From Winogradskyella schleiferi (GTDB lineage: Bacteria; Bacteroidota; Bacteroidia; Flavobacteriales; Flavobacteriaceae): a stretch of 64,000 nucleotides of DNA. Under the pieces are notes generated by a model. It ran no database searches, was not told the DNA's origin, and was given only the letters and a program-made list of their open reading frames with translations. Position numbers and translations under genes: made by a program. Within the stretch, counting starts at the first letter, position 1. Every line of letters starts with the position of its first letter. The stretch spans positions 4,442,001 through 4,506,000 of the forward strand of contig NZ_CP053351.1 of NCBI RefSeq assembly GCF_013394655.1, in the 5' to 3' direction. Positions 11,592 to 26,482 of the stretch are shown piece by piece.

Positions 11592-11609
11592 TCCCGATAG
11601 CTATCGGGA
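11592..11609. repeat. Perfect 18-bp palindrome TCCCGATAGCTATCGGGA
   Basis: The palindrome lies between the sigma factor gene and the AhpD-like gene, 18 bp past the latter's stop. It has no T-run of terminator quality. The same TCCCGAT...ATCGGGA ends are found at 22649-22665 inside a decayed tRNA. Confidence 0.8.
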
Positions 11610-19630: not shown

Positions 19631-20983
19631 TTAAGTGTTTTGAGCAAGGGTATTAAATGTTTTACGGAATTTTATAATTAATGGCAAGCCACGTGCAACC
19701 ATCCAAAGCGTAAATGTTATAAAAATACCGTAGAGTTTATAGTCTAAACTATCTGTCCAATAAATAACGGGAACAAAAACTATAAGTGTAGAAAAAAGAA
19801 GTACGTTTCTGAGATATTTCATTTTACCAAGCCCTTTAAAAACACCATCGAAAATAAAGGCTAAGGCACATAGAGGTTGCATGGCCAGAATAATCCAAAA
19901 TATGTCGTAGAATTTAGAGAGCACCTTTTCGTCATTACTGAATATGTTTCCTAGTGGGTAATAAAAGATAGCACCTATTAATCCCATAAAAACTCCAATC
20001 AGAATGCCATATTTAATCAATTTATTACTTAAATCAATAAGGCTTTTGTAATCTTTTGCTCCAAATAATTTTCCTGATAAGATATTACCGGCACTTGCAT
20101 AACCATCTATAAGAAAAGCCCCTAAAAACCAAAGGTTAATGGCAATAGTATAGGCTGCAATATAACTTTCGCCATATTTTGTGGCAAAGCTAGTTCCAAA
20201 ATACAAGGCAATATTTAAGGCTATGGTTCTGACGAATAAATTAAGAATCATTAAAGTAAAACGTTTCATTTCTGTATTGAAAGGCAAGGTAACCAATAAG
20301 GGAATTTCTGTTTTTTTAAGTAAATAAAAAGCCGAAAGTACGGCCATAATCAGTTGCGCAATAACACTTGCATAAGCAGCACCTTTGATGTGCATGGCAG
20401 GTATAACATCTTCAACACCATAAACAAGAATGACATCTAAAGCTATATTGGAAATCGCACCAGAAATCGCAATCAACATGGGATAGTAGGTATTTTGAAG
20501 TCCTCTAAACGTGCCAAATACAGCAATGGTAAATAAGGTAAACGGAAAGCCAAAAACCCGAATACGATAATAATCCACACTAAAATCCAAGACACTTCCA
20601 GAAGCATTGTAAAGTTTGAAAATCTGTGATGCTAATGGAAAAGTAACAGCTATAATAATGAAGCTCAAACCTGTAATGACAAAAATTGCTTGGGCAGGTA
20701 GATTTTTGACGGCTTCAACATTTCCTGCACCTAAATATTGTGAGATAATGGAAGAAATGGCACTGCGAGTTTGTCCTAAAACCCATATTAACATGGATAG
20801 AAATGTGGTAACAATGCCTACTGCAGCTAAAGATACTGTGGCATTCTGTTCCATATTACCAATTATGGCAGCATCGGTTAACGATAAAATAGGTTCCGAC
20901 ACTCCAGAAATCAATGCAGGAATAGCGAGTTTGTTGATTTGTTTTAAGGTTATAGTTGTGCTCACAATATTAACTCGTAACAA
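19631..20983 (-). CDS. MATE family efflux transporter (DinF-like)
   Basis: A 450-residue cation-coupled multidrug/toxin exporter with 12 predicted membrane segments in two six-helix halves. The start region reads INKLAIPALISGVSEPILSL, close to the DinF branch; GNILSGKLFGAKDYKSL near residue 300 is the second-half counterpart of the first-half loop SSIISQYLGAGNVEAV. The ATG at 20983 lies inside the end of the GNAT gene (22-bp overlap); a GTG at 20965 is an alternative start. The substrate cannot be told from sequence. Confidence 0.9.
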   Translation of the reverse strand: MLRVNIVSTTITLKQINKLAIPALISGVSEPILSLTDAAIIGNMEQNATVSLAAVGIVTTFLSMLIWVLGQTRSAISSIISQYLGAGNVEAVKNLPAQAIFVITGLSFIIIAVTFPLASQIFKLYNASGSVLDFSVDYYRIRVFGFPFTLFTIAVFGTFRGLQNTYYPMLIAISGAISNIALDVILVYGVEDVIPAMHIKGAAYASVIAQLIMAVLSAFYLLKKTEIPLLVTLPFNTEMKRFTLMILNLFVRTIALNIALYFGTSFATKYGESYIAAYTIAINLWFLGAFLIDGYASAGNILSGKLFGAKDYKSLIDLSNKLIKYGILIGVFMGLIGAIFYYPLGNIFSNDEKVLSKFYDIFWIILAMQPLCALAFIFDGVFKGLGKMKYLRNVLLFSTLIVFVPVIYWTDSLDYKLYGIFITFTLWMVARGLPLIIKFRKTFNTLAQNT

Positions 20984-21462
20984 TGAAAAGGAAACTTACT
21001 TTGCTTTGGAAAGAAAATATCACCTAATCGTTTATAACCGCGAAGTTCGTAAAACTTTTGGTTTCTTTTATTCTGTGAAAAGGTGTCTAATCGAATGAAA
21101 CTATAGTTGTTATCTATAGCAAAATGCTCGGCAAAGGCCATAAGTTGTTGCGCATAACCCAATCCTTGATACTTTGGATGAATAGCCAAACGATGAATGT
21201 AAATATTGTTTTTATTTGGTGTTAACCATTTCATAGGAACATATTCTTTATCCATTACAGTAGAAATCACAATGCATCCAGAAACGTGATGGTTGATTTC
21301 CAATACATAAAGCTCATTTCTTTTTATATCTTTTTCAAATGCTTTTGAAGTGGGATAATATGCGTTCCATTGATAAATTCCTTTGGAAATCATACGTTTA
21401 GCACAGGCTTTTGTGATGCTTATAATACAATCAATATCTTTATCTTCTGCCTTACGAATCAT
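20962..21462 (-). CDS. GNAT family N-acetyltransferase
   Basis: A 166-residue acetyltransferase. The acetyl-CoA pyrophosphate loop is visible in YIHRLAIHPKYQGLGYAQQL (about 110-129), preceded by the beta-bulge region HHVSGCIVIS and followed by FIRLDTFSQNKRNQKFYELR, where GNAT motif B lies. The substrate is unknown. It overlaps and precedes the MATE gene, so the two are probably one transcript; a link such as drug modification plus export is possible but not demonstrated. Confidence 0.88.
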   Translation of the reverse strand: MIRKAEDKDIDCIISITKACAKRMISKGIYQWNAYYPTSKAFEKDIKRNELYVLEINHHVSGCIVISTVMDKEYVPMKWLTPNKNNIYIHRLAIHPKYQGLGYAQQLMAFAEHFAIDNNYSFIRLDTFSQNKRNQKFYELRGYKRLGDIFFPKQSKFPFHCYELIL

Positions 21463-21508
21463 TTATAATGTTTACTTTTGTGCCAATATAAACTTCAATT
21501 TTCTAATT

Positions 21509-22306
21509 ATGAAAACGATATTAGTTCCTGTTGGTTCCTCGAAAAACGCACAATCGCATTTACAATATGCTGTAGATTTTGCAAAAGCGTTTGGTGCAAA
21601 AATATATGCAGTTCAAATATATAATGTTTATACTAAAGCTGGTACAATGATTAAGATAGATCATATTTTAGAAGCTGAATCTAAATCGTTTTTAGAAAGT
21701 CATATTGCATCAATTGATAAAAAAGGTGTGGAGGTAATTGCTAGAACGTTTAAGGGGAAATTAGTAGACACGTTAGAAAAGGTGTGTAAAGCATTGGAAG
21801 TTGACTTAATTGTTTTAGAACCACGCACCAACTCCATAAAAGAGGAAGTTTATTTAGGAAAAACGTCTGGTAAGATTATAAAGCAAACGCAGATTCCGGC
21901 TTTAATTGTTCCTGAAGGTTATACGTTTAAACCATTTTCAAAACTTTTGTTAGCCCTAAAATCCGCAACGATTAAAAAAGAAAATGTCTTATATCCTTTG
22001 CAAGCTATTAAAGCGCAATTTAAAGCTGATGTCTCACTACTTTTAGTGAAAACACCATATCATAAAAAACATGATTTTGATATCAATGATGAATTGAAAT
22101 CGCTCATTACTACAACTTCAAAAGCAGAAAGCCCTACAACATTCATGGCTTTTTTAGAGCATTACAAGGAAAATAATCCTGATTTGTTGTGTGTAGTAAG
22201 GCGTAAAAGAGGATTTTTTACTAAGCTTTGGGAAAAAAACACCATTTTAAAGAAGGATTTTCATAGTACTAAAATGCCTGTTTTGGTTTTAAGTGGGTTG
22301 AAATAA
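21509..22306 (+). CDS. Universal stress protein (tandem UspA domains)
   Basis: About 265 residues from the ATG at 21509; the reading frame stays open upstream to 21383, but that part overlaps the GNAT gene on the other strand and lacks Usp character. The first UspA domain (1-140) begins MKTILVPVGSSKNAQSHLQY and carries VDLIVLEPRTNS and GKIIKQTQIPALIVPEG. The second half (about 150-265) is a degenerate Usp repeat ending in STKMPVLVLSG. The G-x2-G-x9-G-S/T ATP motif is not clearly kept. Divergent from the GNAT gene. Confidence 0.87.
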   Translation: MKTILVPVGSSKNAQSHLQYAVDFAKAFGAKIYAVQIYNVYTKAGTMIKIDHILEAESKSFLESHIASIDKKGVEVIARTFKGKLVDTLEKVCKALEVDLIVLEPRTNSIKEEVYLGKTSGKIIKQTQIPALIVPEGYTFKPFSKLLLALKSATIKKENVLYPLQAIKAQFKADVSLLLVKTPYHKKHDFDINDELKSLITTTSKAESPTTFMAFLEHYKENNPDLLCVVRRKRGFFTKLWEKNTILKKDFHSTKMPVLVLSGLK

Positions 22307-22327
22307 GTTATATTTACAAAATTATTT

Positions 22328-22401
22328 GGGGATGTAGCTCAGTTGGCTAGAGCGCTTGACTGGCAGTCAAGAGGTCGTCGGTTCGAGCCCGATCTTCTCC
22401 A
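22328..22401 (+). tRNA. tRNA-Ala (anticodon GGC)
   Basis: The 74-base sequence folds as a cloverleaf: acceptor GGGGATG/CTTCTCC, D-arm with AGCTCAGTTGGCTAGAGC, anticodon arm CTTGACTGGCAGTCAAG with loop CTGGCAG (anticodon GGC), and T-arm GTCGGTTCGAGCCCGAT. The discriminator is A and CCA is not encoded. Acceptor pair 6-67 is T-T, a mismatch. A strong terminator follows at once. Confidence 0.93.
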
Positions 22402-22402
22402 C

Positions 22403-22426
22403 AAAAGCGTGTTTCGGCACGCTTTT
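22403..22426 (+). terminator. Terminator of tRNA-Ala
   Basis: AAAAGCGTG and CACGCTTTT flank the loop TTTCGG, followed by more T. It begins two bases after the tRNA end. An identical hairpin follows the decayed tRNA copy at 22698. Confidence 0.88.
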
Positions 22427-22593
22427 TTTATGCCAATAATTTTGGTTTACTGACTATACTAATTTTGGAATTGGAAAGTATCCTAGAATAGTACCAAACA
22501 ATATTGATGTTAAAAACATGTTCACCACTTTTTATGATGTTAAATTACAAGTCAGATTCCAATTTTGTATAAGGTGATGAATAAATTAATTTT

Positions 22594-22696
22594 TAGGATG
22601 TAGCCCGCCTGAATGAATTCATTCGGGCAGGCTCAGTTGGCTAAAGCGTCCCGATGACATCGGGAAGGTTCGTCGGTTCGAGCCCAATCTTCTCCA
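22594..22696 (+). pseudogene. Decayed tRNA-Ala copy carrying two palindromic inserts
   Basis: This aligns base by base with the tRNA at 22328 except in three places. A 28-bp palindromic insert (22604-22631, core GAATGAATTCATTC) splits the D-stem. The 17-base anticodon arm is replaced by the 17-base palindrome TCCCGATGACATCGGGA (22649-22665). The first two acceptor bases are changed. The T-arm, acceptor 3' half and the following terminator are nearly identical to the intact gene. It cannot make a working tRNA-Ala. The DNA between the intact tRNA terminator and this copy (22434-22593) holds nothing recognisable. Confidence 0.85.
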
Positions 22697-22697
22697 C

Positions 22698-22721
22698 AAA
22701 AGCGTGTTTCGGCACGCTTTT
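22698..22721 (+). terminator. Second copy of the tRNA terminator
   Basis: This hairpin (AAAAGCGTG, TTTCGG, CACGCTTTT) is identical to the one at 22403, showing that the tRNA and its terminator were duplicated together. Confidence 0.8.
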
Positions 22722-22797
22722 TTTATGTCCAAATATCAGGAAAAAAGCTAATTAGATTATTTTTTTTGTATGTTAGCATCAGTTTAATGCCCCAAAC

Positions 22798-24342
22798 ATG
22801 AAACGAATTTTACTACTAACCTACGTATTAGCATCAGCTTTGTATGCTCAAAAACCAGCTTTCGATCCTAAAAGTTCATCTGGTCAACTCTTTGAATATT
22901 CTGAATATGCCCATGTAGATAAAGCAAATTACTCCATTGAAGAGGTTTTAAATAATGAACAGTTATCCTATAAAAAACTGGAATCCGCCAACCATGATTT
23001 TGGTTTTACCTCTGATAATTATTGGGTAAGATTCCGATTGAAAAACACCTCGGATTCTGAGAAATCTTATTATCTAAAAACAGGACGGCCAGTAACCGAT
23101 GTTATTAATTTGTATGAAATTAAACCTGAAATTAGAACATTCAAAAATGGTGACCTAAATGCTTTTAGCGAGCGTGATGTAGAACATCGTGAGATTATTT
23201 TTAAAATAGATTTGCCAGCACAAGAAGAGCAGTTGTTTTATATGGAAATTTCGAGTGATGGTGAAGCCATAAATCTCCCACTTACATTATATGATGAATC
23301 CTCATTTTTTATTAATAACTATAAGCAACAGTTATTTCTAGGTCTTTTTTATGGTGTTTTATTATTAGCAGGTTTTATATACCTCTTTTTTTATAGTAGT
23401 TTAAAAAACAGAACTTTTTTATACTATGGTATTTACGTGTTTTCTATTGCATTGATGCAAGCGGCTTTAGATGGTTTCATCTATCAATATTTATTTCCAA
23501 ACGGTGGATTTTTTAATAGCCGAATGGTGCTTATAACAGCCATCTCATCAAATTTCTTTTTGCTTAAATATTGTGAACATTTTTTAAAGGTAAATATCAA
23601 CTTAGCCCATTTTAAAAAAGCATACAATGCAATTTATGCAAGTTTAGCTATGGTGTTTTTCATGATTTTTATGAGCCCAAAGACCTTTGAGTTGGCTTAT
23701 CCAATTAGTAACATCAATGGTTTGTTCAGTTTATTGCTCATTTTAGCTACTGTATTTACGATGTGGTACAAACGAATTTCTGTAGATATATATTTCAGCT
23801 TGGGCATATTGTTTTTGGTTATTGGATTACTTGGTTTTGTAATGAACAATTTAGGACTCTTACAAAGTAATTTCTACACCTTAAACAGTTCTAAGTTTGG
23901 TTCTGGTATAGAAGTGGTTCTATTATCACTATCAATGACCAATCTTATTAAAAAATTAAGGCAAGACAACGAAAAATCCCAAGCCTTAGCGCTGAAAAAG
24001 TCTGAAGAAATTAGTGAGCTCAAAACGTATTTTATGTCTAATATTAGTCACGAATTACGCACACCTATCAATGCCATTATGGGAATGGCAGAATCCGCAC
24101 TTTCTGATACAAATAATGACAAAGAAAATATAGAGAAGTATCAAATCATTAAAAATGCTTCCATGAGTTTGCTTAGTAATGTAAATGATGTTTTAGATTT
24201 TGAACGTATTGAGAAAAATGAACTTCAACTTAAGGAAGAAGAATTCAACCCTGTTTCAATTTTAATGGACATTAGTAATAATTGGAAGTTTGAAGCACAG
24301 AAAAAAGAATTGAATTATATGTATGTCCCTAGTATAGGTTGA
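22798..24342 (+). pseudogene. Hybrid histidine kinase, N-terminal part (interrupted by IS)
   Basis: The first 514 codons of a membrane sensor kinase. It has a signal peptide (to about 17), a periplasmic 7TMR-DISMED2-like beta domain (about 20-160), a seven-helix DISM membrane domain (about 175-385), a coiled coil, then HisKA with the phospho-acceptor His418 in SNISHELRTPINA. The frame ends at a TGA supplied by the IS. The ATPase and receiver domains continue at 25652. Removing 1294 bp (IS plus one AGG repeat) restores one frame, reading VPSIGKYNSFEMDSEIP across the junction, so the break is the insertion itself and the rest is intact. The fragment may be made but lacks ATPase. Confidence 0.9.
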
Positions 24343-24366
24343 CCACTTTAAACAAAGTGTAAACTT

Positions 24367-24765
24367 ATGAAAGCAAACATTAAACTATTAAAAAAGAAAC
24401 GAATTTATTCTGAAGAATTTAAACGACAAATCGTAAAAGATTTTGAATCTGGTCAATTTAGCGTGCCTCAATTGGAAAAATTACACAACATAAGCAATAC
24501 ATCAATTTACAGTTGGATCCATAAATTTTCTACCTTTAACGAAAAAGGTTCAAGAGTTGTAGAGATGAAAAACAGTAGTGCCCAAAAGATGAAAGAACAA
24601 CAAGCCCGAATAAAAGAGCTTGAAGCCATAGTTGGGCGTAAACAGATAAAGATAGATTATTTGGAGAAGCTAATTGATATTGCAGAAGACGATTTAAGTA
24701 TAGATATCAAAAAAAATTCCAACACTCCGCAATCAACTGGTTCAGAACACATAAAGAAACACTAA
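24367..24765 (+). CDS. IS3-family transposase OrfA
   Basis: A 132-residue protein with an N-terminal helix-turn-helix (YSEEFKRQIVKDFESGQFS, then VPQLEKLHNISNTSIYSWIH) followed by a leucine-zipper-like coiled coil (about 75-105, KMKEQQARIKELEAIVGR). This is the DNA-binding subunit that recognises IS ends. It ends 8 bp before orfB and in the frame from which a -1 shift gives the OrfAB fusion. Confidence 0.93.
   Translation: MKANIKLLKKKRIYSEEFKRQIVKDFESGQFSVPQLEKLHNISNTSIYSWIHKFSTFNEKGSRVVEMKNSSAQKMKEQQARIKELEAIVGRKQIKIDYLEKLIDIAEDDLSIDIKKNSNTPQSTGSEHIKKH
24709..24716 (+). other. Possible -1 frameshift site (A8 run) in the IS
   Basis: Eight A residues lie near the end of orfA. The -1 frame is open from here through the orfB start, so slippage would make an OrfAB fusion (KKFQHSAINWFRTHKE, then the OrfB start). 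IS3 elements commonly use an A-rich slippery site; the fusion here is inferred. Confidence 0.6.
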
Positions 24766-24773
24766 GTTTTAGT

Positions 24774-25610
24774 ATGAACCAGCTTTATAAAACCATAGGC
24801 ATCAGTAAACAAGCCGTTAACCAGTATGCAAAGCGGCAAGCGGTTTTCGATAGTCGAGTGTCTCAATTAATATTAGAGGCAGATGATCTTCGGGAGGATC
24901 ATCCTGGTTGTGGAGTAGAAAAGATGTACAATATATTAGATCCGGATTTTATAGGTCGAGACCGTTTTATAGAAACCATGATGGGTCTTGGTTACAGAAT
25001 TAAAAAGAAAAGGAATTATAAACGCACAACAATAGCAGGTAAAAAGTTTTATCCCAACCTAATAAAAGGTCTAAGGGTAAACGCACCAAACGTGGTATGG
25101 CAATCGGACATAACCTATCTGCCGCTCAACGGAAAACACTATTACGCTGTGTTTATAATAGATGTTTATACAAAAAAGATTGTTGGGTTTATCGTATCTG
25201 ATAACATGAGAGCGCAAGCGAATGTAGAAGCACTTAAAATGGCAATCAAGGAAAATAATGCACCCGAGATCCATAACTCGGACAGGGGAAGCCAATACAC
25301 TTACAGTAAATACATAGACTTACTGGTAAGCAATGGCACTAAGATAAGTATGTCTTTAAGTGGACTGGACAATGCATATGCAGAACGAATCAATAGAACT
25401 ATAAAAGAAGAATATTTAGATTATTGGAAACCAGAAACCTTCTTTCAATTAAAAAAATGTGTAGCAAAAGCAGTTAAGAATTATAATGAAAAAAGAACAC
25501 ATAAAAGTTTACCAAAAATGAGCCCAGACAATTTTGAGAAATATTGGTCAACCTTAAAACCAAAAAATAGACCCATAATTACTATTTTTAACAATGAAGT
25601 AAATAACTAA
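24774..25610 (+). CDS. IS3-family transposase OrfB (DDE catalytic subunit)
   Basis: A 278-residue transposase with a helix-turn-helix-like HTH_21 region (DDLREDHPGCGVEKMYNIL) and an RNase H-like rve domain. The catalytic residues are Asp112 (WQSDITYLP), Asp170 (HNSDRGSQY) and Glu204 (NAYAERINRTIKEEY). Length and spacing are normal. It is functional as far as can be seen, probably made as OrfAB by frameshifting. Confidence 0.95.
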   Translation: MNQLYKTIGISKQAVNQYAKRQAVFDSRVSQLILEADDLREDHPGCGVEKMYNILDPDFIGRDRFIETMMGLGYRIKKKRNYKRTTIAGKKFYPNLIKGLRVNAPNVVWQSDITYLPLNGKHYYAVFIIDVYTKKIVGFIVSDNMRAQANVEALKMAIKENNAPEIHNSDRGSQYTYSKYIDLLVSNGTKISMSLSGLDNAYAERINRTIKEEYLDYWKPETFFQLKKCVAKAVKNYNEKRTHKSLPKMSPDNFEKYWSTLKPKNRPIITIFNNEVNN

Positions 25611-25651
25611 AAAACGGTCAACTCTATTCAGGGAAGTACAATAGTTTTGAA

Positions 25652-26482
25652 ATGGATTCTGAAATTCCGCTAAAAGTTTGTGGTGATGCAGATCGTTTTG
25701 CCCAAATTATAAATAATGTTTTAGCGAATGCAGTAAAATTTACAAATGAAGGCCATGTATATTTAAAATTAAAATGTTTAGCACAACCTAACGATATCAC
25801 TCGATTTTATTTTCAAATTTCAGATACAGGAATTGGAATGGACGAAGAAAGTAAAAACCATATTTTTGACAGTTTTAACCAAATGCGCTTAAACAATAAA
25901 CGTCAATTTGGTGGCATAGGACTTGGGCTTACCATTTCAAAGCATTTAATAACCTTGTTTAATGGAACACTACAAGTAGAAAGCGTTGCGGGCGAAGGAA
26001 CTGATGTCTTTATCGAAATTCCTCTAGAACGTATAGCAAGTGAATTAGTTGAAGATACATCTAAAGTCATAAAAACTATAGATACTAAGTTAAATATTCT
26101 TATTGTTGAGGATAATAAGCTCAATCAAATGGTCATAAAAAAATTGTTGAGCAGTTACCCTGACGCTAGCTTTACAGTGGCTGAAAATGGAAAAGAAGCT
26201 ATTACAGCACTAAAAAATGATGTTTACAATTTAATTCTCATGGATTTACAAATGCCCATTATGGATGGTTATGAAGCTACTGCTATAATTAGAAGTGGTG
26301 ATTTAGGGAAGTCAATTACTTCTATTCCAATAATTGCCGTGACTGCAGACGCAACCGAAGCAACCAAGAAACGTGCTTTAGCCTTGGGAATGAATGATTA
26401 CATGACCAAACCTGTAAGAAAAGATTTGCTTTTTGAAAAAATCAGTTCTTGTATCAATACGCATAATTTAAACGTGGCTTAA
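25652..26482 (+). pseudogene. Hybrid histidine kinase, C-terminal part (ATPase and receiver)
   Basis: The distal 276 codons of the kinase split by the IS. The HATPase_c domain has the N box NNVLANAVKFT, G1 box DTGIGM and G2 box GGIGLGLTISK. The receiver domain (about 148-270) begins LNILIVEDNKLNQMVIKKL and has the phospho-acceptor Asp in LILMDLQMPIMDGYE and the lysine in MTKPVRKD. No HisKA precedes it here, so it cannot be phosphorylated by its own partner. The frame continues upstream to the IS junction; internal translation from the ATG at 25652 is possible. Confidence 0.9.

Follow-up and report, generated by a model that had tools for sequence, protein, structure and literature searches.

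Integrative elements that target tRNA genes are bounded by an intact tRNA copy at one end and a partial one at the other, and Rickettsia palindromic elements form one family of dispersed palindromic inserts within protein genes. SegB of T-even phages is described as a free-standing GIY-YIG homing endonuclease that is encoded beside tRNA genes, cuts inside them and drives recombinational tandem amplification of a tRNA segment (PMC13096335). Short dispersed palindromes are also described as occurring without a dedicated transposase, as in the CGTC-tagged REPs (PMC3733652). We compared with these systems a broken tRNA-Ala copy of Winogradskyella schleiferi, which lies in a 64,000-nucleotide stretch of contig NZ_CP053351.1 (positions 4,442,001 to 4,506,000, hereafter the window). 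Our analysis indicates that this copy is probably the nuclease-less remnant of an element targeting tRNA genes and encoding a GIY-YIG nuclease, whose cleavage and mobility we infer. Judged by comparison of loci, the complete element consists of a GIY-YIG gene, one intact tRNA and, across the ORF, a palindrome-broken partial copy of that tRNA. Its architecture, recurrence and palindrome positions are established by sequence, as are covariation in the tRNA-Met palindromes, purifying selection on the Ala-linked nuclease genes, one tandem array and empty sites, and the adjacent tRNA would be the target of the nuclease.

The only tRNA called by ARAGORN in the whole window is an intact tRNA-Ala(GGC) on the forward strand (22328..22402, +; 64 bits against Rfam RF00005), which is followed by a terminator hairpin recognized as an inverted repeat (22403..22426, +). 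The start of a second copy, at 22594, lies 191 bp past the end of the intact gene at 22402. This copy (22594..22697, +) is of full length and broken by two palindromes, and the first two bases of its acceptor stem are changed too. A 28-nt palindromic insert follows tRNA position 9, directly 5' of the 5' strand of the D stem (22603..22630, +, a placement equivalent to 22605-22632), and the 14 nt at its core, GAATGAATTCATTC, form a perfect palindrome. The original 17-nt anticodon arm, CTTGACTGGCAGTCAAG, has been exactly substituted by the 17-nt palindrome TCCCGATGACATCGGGA (22649..22665, +), a 17-mer that occurs once in the genome, which is one 4.56-Mb contig. A terminator copy (22698..22721, +) closes the locus. 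An earlier sequence-only reading of this DNA had described the D-arm insert, the exact arm replacement and the identity of the two terminators, and all three were confirmed, the first two at 22594-22697 and the last as 22403-22426 = 22698-22721. The broken copy 22594-22697 was called as a tRNA neither by ARAGORN in the window nor by Rfam (E <= 1, searched over 20000-25000), and it folds more stably than its shuffles (z -4.2, with 0/200 shuffles as good).

GIY-YIG homology is undetectable in the spacer between the two copies (22429..22593, +). Comparison of 22429-22601 with the GIY-YIG ORF gave no local alignment above shuffles, a GIY-YIG HMM had no match in 21501-23500, and PF01541 had none in the whole window. 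A GIY-YIG remnant in the spacer was thus rejected, on alignments no better than shuffles and the lack of an HMM match. Further downstream, at 22798-26482, a gene which we take to encode a sensor kinase is apparently split into ORFs 22798-24342 (514 aa) and 25652-26482 (276 aa), with a two-ORF, presumably IS3-like, transposase (24367-24765 and 24774-25610) between the halves.

The sequence-only reading had looked to close relatives for an uninvaded ancestor, and in four congeners (G019, G004, G007 and G020) a single intact tRNA-Ala does follow the same upstream gene, presumably a universal-stress-like one. It would also have been undermined by relatives without a duplicate tRNA; duplicates are present in G011, G008 and G017. 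In G011 and G008, the site holds a 5' half of tRNA-Ala carrying the D-arm palindrome, then a GIY-YIG ORF, then an intact tRNA-Ala, and the palindrome splits the half copies at the same base as in the window. In G017, the half copy and the start of the ORF lie at one contig end and the end of the ORF and the tRNA at another. Gelidibacter salicanalis shares the layout of G011 and G008, with each of the two D-stem strands preceded by its own palindrome. The base of insertion is identical, and the sequence nearly so, in the window, G011, G008, G017 and Gelidibacter. The key partner, absent from the sequence-only reading, is a GIY-YIG gene that accompanies such broken tRNAs in relatives. The order of the copies differs, the dead half lying upstream of the intact tRNA in G011 and the dead copy downstream in the window.

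A search of the whole W. schleiferi genome (G000) for GAATTCATTCGGGCAGGC with up to two mismatches found matches only at the window locus, on both arms, and G011 has one exact copy and one site with two mismatches. The D-arm palindrome is thus single-copy in G000 and is not, here, a copy of a dispersed family. Winogradskyella relatives and Gelidibacter carry it at an identical base, which indicates that it travels with the locus. In G012, the D arm of the tRNA at the same site is replaced by TCCCGATAGCTATCGGGA; within this stretch ARAGORN called no tRNA, and scoring of the vicinity revealed no second copy. At the same locus in a genome of another genus (G348, L136), ARAGORN called a tRNA-Ala(GGC) with the anticodon arm TCCCGATGGCATCGGGA, which is one base different from the dead arm of the window.

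Elements of this kind recur within the same two genomes, where GIY-YIG matches number 19 in G000 and 26 in G011. In G000, an intact tRNA-Asn is followed by six tandem units of 427 bp, each comprising a GIY-YIG ORF and a piece of tRNA-Asn broken by TCCCGAAAGCTTTCGGGA, so that tandem amplification of a tRNA segment is present at this locus and absent from that of the window. A tRNA-Val locus of G000 begins with a 5' tRNA copy in which TCCCGATTTCATCGGGA forms a 17-nt anticodon arm; this is followed by intact tRNA-Val(TAC), then a GIY-YIG ORF and finally tRNA-Val(GAC). At a tRNA-Arg(TCT) locus of G011, two such arm replacements, of 17 and 18 nt, flank an intact tRNA together with a stop-bearing GIY-YIG frame. 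Other loci of G011 provided further observations. Two GIY-YIG ORFs (L129:677-934 and L033:2104-2373) extend into the adjacent tRNA, with their last codons or stop inside it. At L125 (G011:C1:1150400-1152800), a GIY-YIG gene lies beside a gene which we take to resemble sucB, the 5' end of which recurs as a second copy bearing a palindrome, a protein-gene analogue of the tRNA architecture. Two GIY-YIG tandem arrays, L113 and L114, share the same sequence before their first unit, a pattern that a single insertion sequence entering each of them could have produced.

In a wider survey of such loci, scanning named genomes with three tRNA-adjacent nucleases gave 219 relatives, and the analysis was restricted to the 80 best. 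A tRNA was present within 700 bp in 65 of these best 80 of 219, a proportion that is not valid for GIY-YIG genes at large because the queries were chosen for lying beside tRNAs. A stricter adjacency rule gave 63/80, leaving 17/80 without an adjacent tRNA; similarly, 16/20 stretches around GIY-YIG matches of G000 and G011 had no ARAGORN tRNA. As ARAGORN may call broken copies, the 63 include L171, whose 'SeC' call is probably a dead Met copy, and the 'Lys' call at L135 is a dead Val copy. The hosts are bacterial genome contigs, mostly of Bacteroidota, with some records from candidate phyla, Ignavibacteriota and Balneolota.

Across the nuclease ORF, 50 of the 63 tRNA-linked loci have a partial copy of the adjacent tRNA, and 13 have none above threshold, eight of these being Arg loci. 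Two layouts were apparent: half tRNA, ORF and intact tRNA, mostly for Arg and Ala; and intact tRNA, ORF and 3' part of the tRNA, for Met, Val, Leu, Asn and others. Many of the dead copies are halves that are unable to fold as a whole tRNA. Using a mismatch-tolerant palindrome score with real-sequence controls, scores of at least 20 were obtained for 20/50 dead copies, 2/50 intact tRNAs and 2.2% of control windows, with medians of 19, 13.5 and 11, respectively. Dead copies fell in the top tenth of the 40 control windows of their own locus in 38/50 cases; the remaining 12 were not outstanding, in the case of L146 because the scored piece omitted the insert. The length of the perfect inverted repeat, by which 24/50 dead copies exceeded 95% of shuffles and 11/50 the shuffle maximum, was rejected as too strict a score because the palindromes contain mismatches and loops. 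In Arg(ACG/TCG) and Ala copies, most palindromes adjoin the D-stem strands within the D arm, while some occupy the D loop or a position beyond it. At Leu(CAA) loci, at several loci of Val and Arg(TCT) and at one of Asn, the palindrome replaces the anticodon arm, and the exact replacement noticed in the window recurs in other tRNAs and genera.

The nuclease is one GIY-YIG domain of about 80-95 codons. The same-locus proteins of G011 and G008 match PF01541 (E 3.8e-13 and 3.4e-14), matches to solved structures were only to UPF0213 (1ywl, E 2.9e-6; 1zg2, E 0.006), and a tblastn search of a phage collection with the G011 protein gave no match. By a dN/dS of 0.15-0.23 between them, the three Ala-linked nuclease genes are under purifying selection. 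On a quick tree (about 74 columns; 77 of the 80 proteins, of which 62 have a tRNA label), the isotype of the tRNA is retained within nuclease lineages, with 12 changes compared to at least 24 in 200 shuffles, and so is its side, with five changes compared to at least 15. A Cytophagales member is placed among Flavobacteriia sequences and candidate-phylum members are present, a pattern that is compatible with horizontal spread.

The palindromes linked to tRNA-Met are fixed in position and covary. In 23/27 of these loci, the dead copy reads CATA (CTTA in two) and then TCCG..CGGA, a count made without a shuffle control using a pattern drawn up after inspection of the loci, with matches on either side of the tRNA accepted. 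The intact Met gene reads CATA-ACC-CNNA-GGT at this point, and in those 23 loci the palindrome stands at a single base, on the 3' side of the anticodon loop. Among 19 distinct palindromes, 114/114 pair cells are Watson-Crick, and nine changes are two-sided and none one-sided (0/500 shuffles); the outer four pairs were for the most part dictated by the search pattern, which left two inner pairs free, and the sequences are related. One copy each was taken from 18 of the 23 loci together with L228. Omitted were L200 (an exact duplicate), L209 and L214 (same 16-mer) and L205 and L206, whose palindromes are shorter; weaker second copies, for example the badly pairing downstream copy of L219, were left out too. 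The lack of G-U intermediates would favour a DNA-level cause over an RNA hairpin.

A reciprocal approach started from the DNA pattern of the broken tRNAs. The anticodon-arm pattern TCCCGA-N5-TCGGGA was present in 8/397 family genomes (control 0). G348, with its working tRNA-Ala, and G395, a non-tRNA site, were set aside before counting, and the other six are broken tRNA copies, with a GIY-YIG ORF in the fetched stretch for 5/6. The sixth, in G467, is at contig ends. As this pattern was derived from G000 and G011 loci found via the nuclease, the figure without these two is 3/4. A Met-type pattern was present in 7/149 class genomes (control 0), with a GIY-YIG ORF in 5/7 and a possible overlap with the 80 loci. 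The HMM used to find these ORFs contains the G000, G213 and G447 proteins, so those matches arise by construction, and the G011 match consists of three fragments. Separately, we observed pieces of tRNA-Asn or tRNA-Met, broken by palindromes and arranged in short tandem units, at L134, L143 (G467) and L232 (G492), with no nuclease gene in the fetched stretch, as with the window copy.

The sequence-only reading had regarded the palindromes of this locus as a likely mobile family that targets or replaces hairpins, a view that would be weakened by their absence from the rest of the genome. For the D-arm palindrome, which is single-copy and locus-bound, that absence was found; for the TCCCGA family, dispersal was clear and a leaning to hairpins was detected. 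TCCCGA-N3-8-TCGGGA has 35 sites in G000 (reversed-pattern control 0), one of which, TCCCGATAGCTATCGGGA, was located in the window by pattern search outside any tRNA (11592..11609, +). Only 2/35 are 17 nt long, and each of these two forms the anticodon arm in a copy of a tRNA (window 22649; 3418429). Setting aside those at the Asn array, at the Val locus and in the window copy leaves 27 sites, 23 of which were examined. For these 23, ARAGORN found no tRNA within about 600 bp on each side, and the longest stop-to-stop frame across any site is 139 codons. A flank stem score of at least 14 was reached at 5/23 sites compared to 1.3 expected (p about 0.013); at one of the five, L250, the stem merely prolongs the palindrome itself. 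A second dispersed family, TTCCTGC-N4-GCAGGAA, has 38 sites in each of G000 and G011 (control 1 each). Within 1 kb of GIY-YIG genes are 7/35 TCCCGA sites of G000, six of them in one array, compared to 0.27 expected (p 0.0005). TTCCTGC sites near GIY-YIG genes number 5/38 in G011 compared to 0.33 expected (p 0.001), with a weak excess in G000 (2 of 37 listed, of 38; p 0.055). Most dispersed palindromes are more than 1 kb from GIY-YIG genes, and hence the idea that the nuclease moves them is no more than a lead. A RAYT was rejected as mover, as the single Y1_Tnp match in the genome (3988101) is about 476 kb from the locus.

These patterns may have arisen through the following steps. The nuclease would act on, and presumably cut, a tRNA gene, and repair by homologous recombination would copy the nuclease gene and a piece of the tRNA beside the target. 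The host would retain one working tRNA, and the palindrome in the other copy may mark or block the nuclease site and so prevent recutting. In the window, the nuclease gene would have been lost, leaving behind the dead copy and the duplicated terminator. Simple homing leaves unexplained that an intact tRNA survives beside the nuclease, the interruption being confined to the partial copy that it adjoins. More than one event is needed for the window copy, since it bears palindromes in both the D arm and the anticodon arm. The reversed order of the copies relative to G011, and a window that has neither a nuclease gene nor a recognizable trace of one, also count against the remnant reading. So do the tRNA-linked loci with no partial copy above threshold (13/63), the dead copies whose palindrome does not stand out (12/50) and the GIY-YIG genes with no tRNA beside them (17/80 loci of the survey and 16/20 stretches of G000 and G011). 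A broader proposal, which we put forward only tentatively, is that the window represents a nuclease-less derivative of a widespread, undescribed mobile element, mainly of Bacteroidota but with scattered members in candidate phyla and in Ignavibacteriota. Its minimal GIY-YIG nuclease would recognize hairpin-forming DNA in tRNA genes and move by break repair, carrying a palindrome that replaces the targeted arm, and may mobilize dispersed palindromes.

Alternatively, REP-like mobile palindromes may insert into or replace hairpins, the dead tRNA being one of many targets and the nuclease either the mover or incidental. The 35 sites of the TCCCGA family, the stem-forming flanks (5/23 versus 1.3 expected) and the proximity of palindromes to GIY-YIG genes above expectation (TCCCGA in G000, TTCCTGC in G011 and, weakly, TTCCTGC in G000) speak for this explanation. 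However, the D-arm palindrome is single-copy, the Met palindromes share one position and one sequence class, and most dispersed copies are more than 1 kb from any GIY-YIG gene, so we consider it unlikely. A role at the RNA level, in which a tRNA-shaped hairpin without a usable anticodon guides the processing or stability of the nuclease transcript, would fit the 17-nt replacement, which keeps the length of the anticodon arm, and the strong fold of the window copy (z -4.2). This seems improbable given that many dead copies are halves with no whole-tRNA fold, that the two-sided Met changes lack G-U intermediates and favour a DNA-level cause, and that in the window there is no nuclease transcript on which the copy could act.

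A cleave-and-rescue system, in which naive tRNA genes fall to the nuclease while a recoded, resistant tRNA comes with the element, the palindromic arm being the resistance allele, appears more doubtful still. The tRNA-Ala(GGC) that ARAGORN called in G348 at the same locus does itself carry the arm TCCCGATGGCATCGGGA, but this is one of the 397 genomes searched and has no nuclease gene in its stretch, and elsewhere, at the loci inspected, it is the dead copy that carries the palindrome. We retain as probable the reading of the window copy as a remnant of a tRNA-targeting GIY-YIG element.

This reading turns an odd broken tRNA gene into a recognizable landmark of a tRNA-linked nuclease element in many Bacteroidota, and the element would account for tRNA-adjacent GIY-YIG genes, pseudo-tRNAs and tandem arrays in such genomes. 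The fixed, covarying palindromes offer a direct test of whether the nuclease recognizes sequence, hairpin or both, and the element offers a candidate enzyme for palindromic repeats without a known transposase. No earlier description of it appeared in the titles or abstract openings among the matches listed, which cover the literature in part.

Like tRNA-targeted integrative elements, these loci combine intact and partial tRNA copies; they differ in being a few hundred bases long, with no integrase seen and with a dead copy that is broken by a palindrome. With Rickettsia palindromic elements they share palindromic inserts inside genes, whereas ours are tied to a tRNA copy and, in relatives, to a nuclease gene. 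Spread of the Rickettsia type through coding genes was not seen, the D-arm palindrome being single-copy and frames across the 23 TCCCGA sites spanning at most 139 codons. The resemblance to REP/RAYT systems is in the short dispersed palindromes, of which TCCCGA has its 35 sites; our D-arm palindrome is, however, single-copy, and the sole Y1_Tnp is about 476 kb away. UPF0213 and stand-alone GIY-YIG proteins provide the only solved-structure match, and the link to tRNA genes is seen in ours. By analogy, the nearest characterized case is phage SegB, in that both involve a small GIY-YIG nuclease beside tRNA genes and a tandem array of a tRNA segment, ours being at the tRNA-Asn of G000. SegB is phage-borne and, in the sections of its report covered here, no palindrome-broken partial tRNA copy is described (PMC13096335), whereas our elements carry such copies and reside on bacterial contigs.
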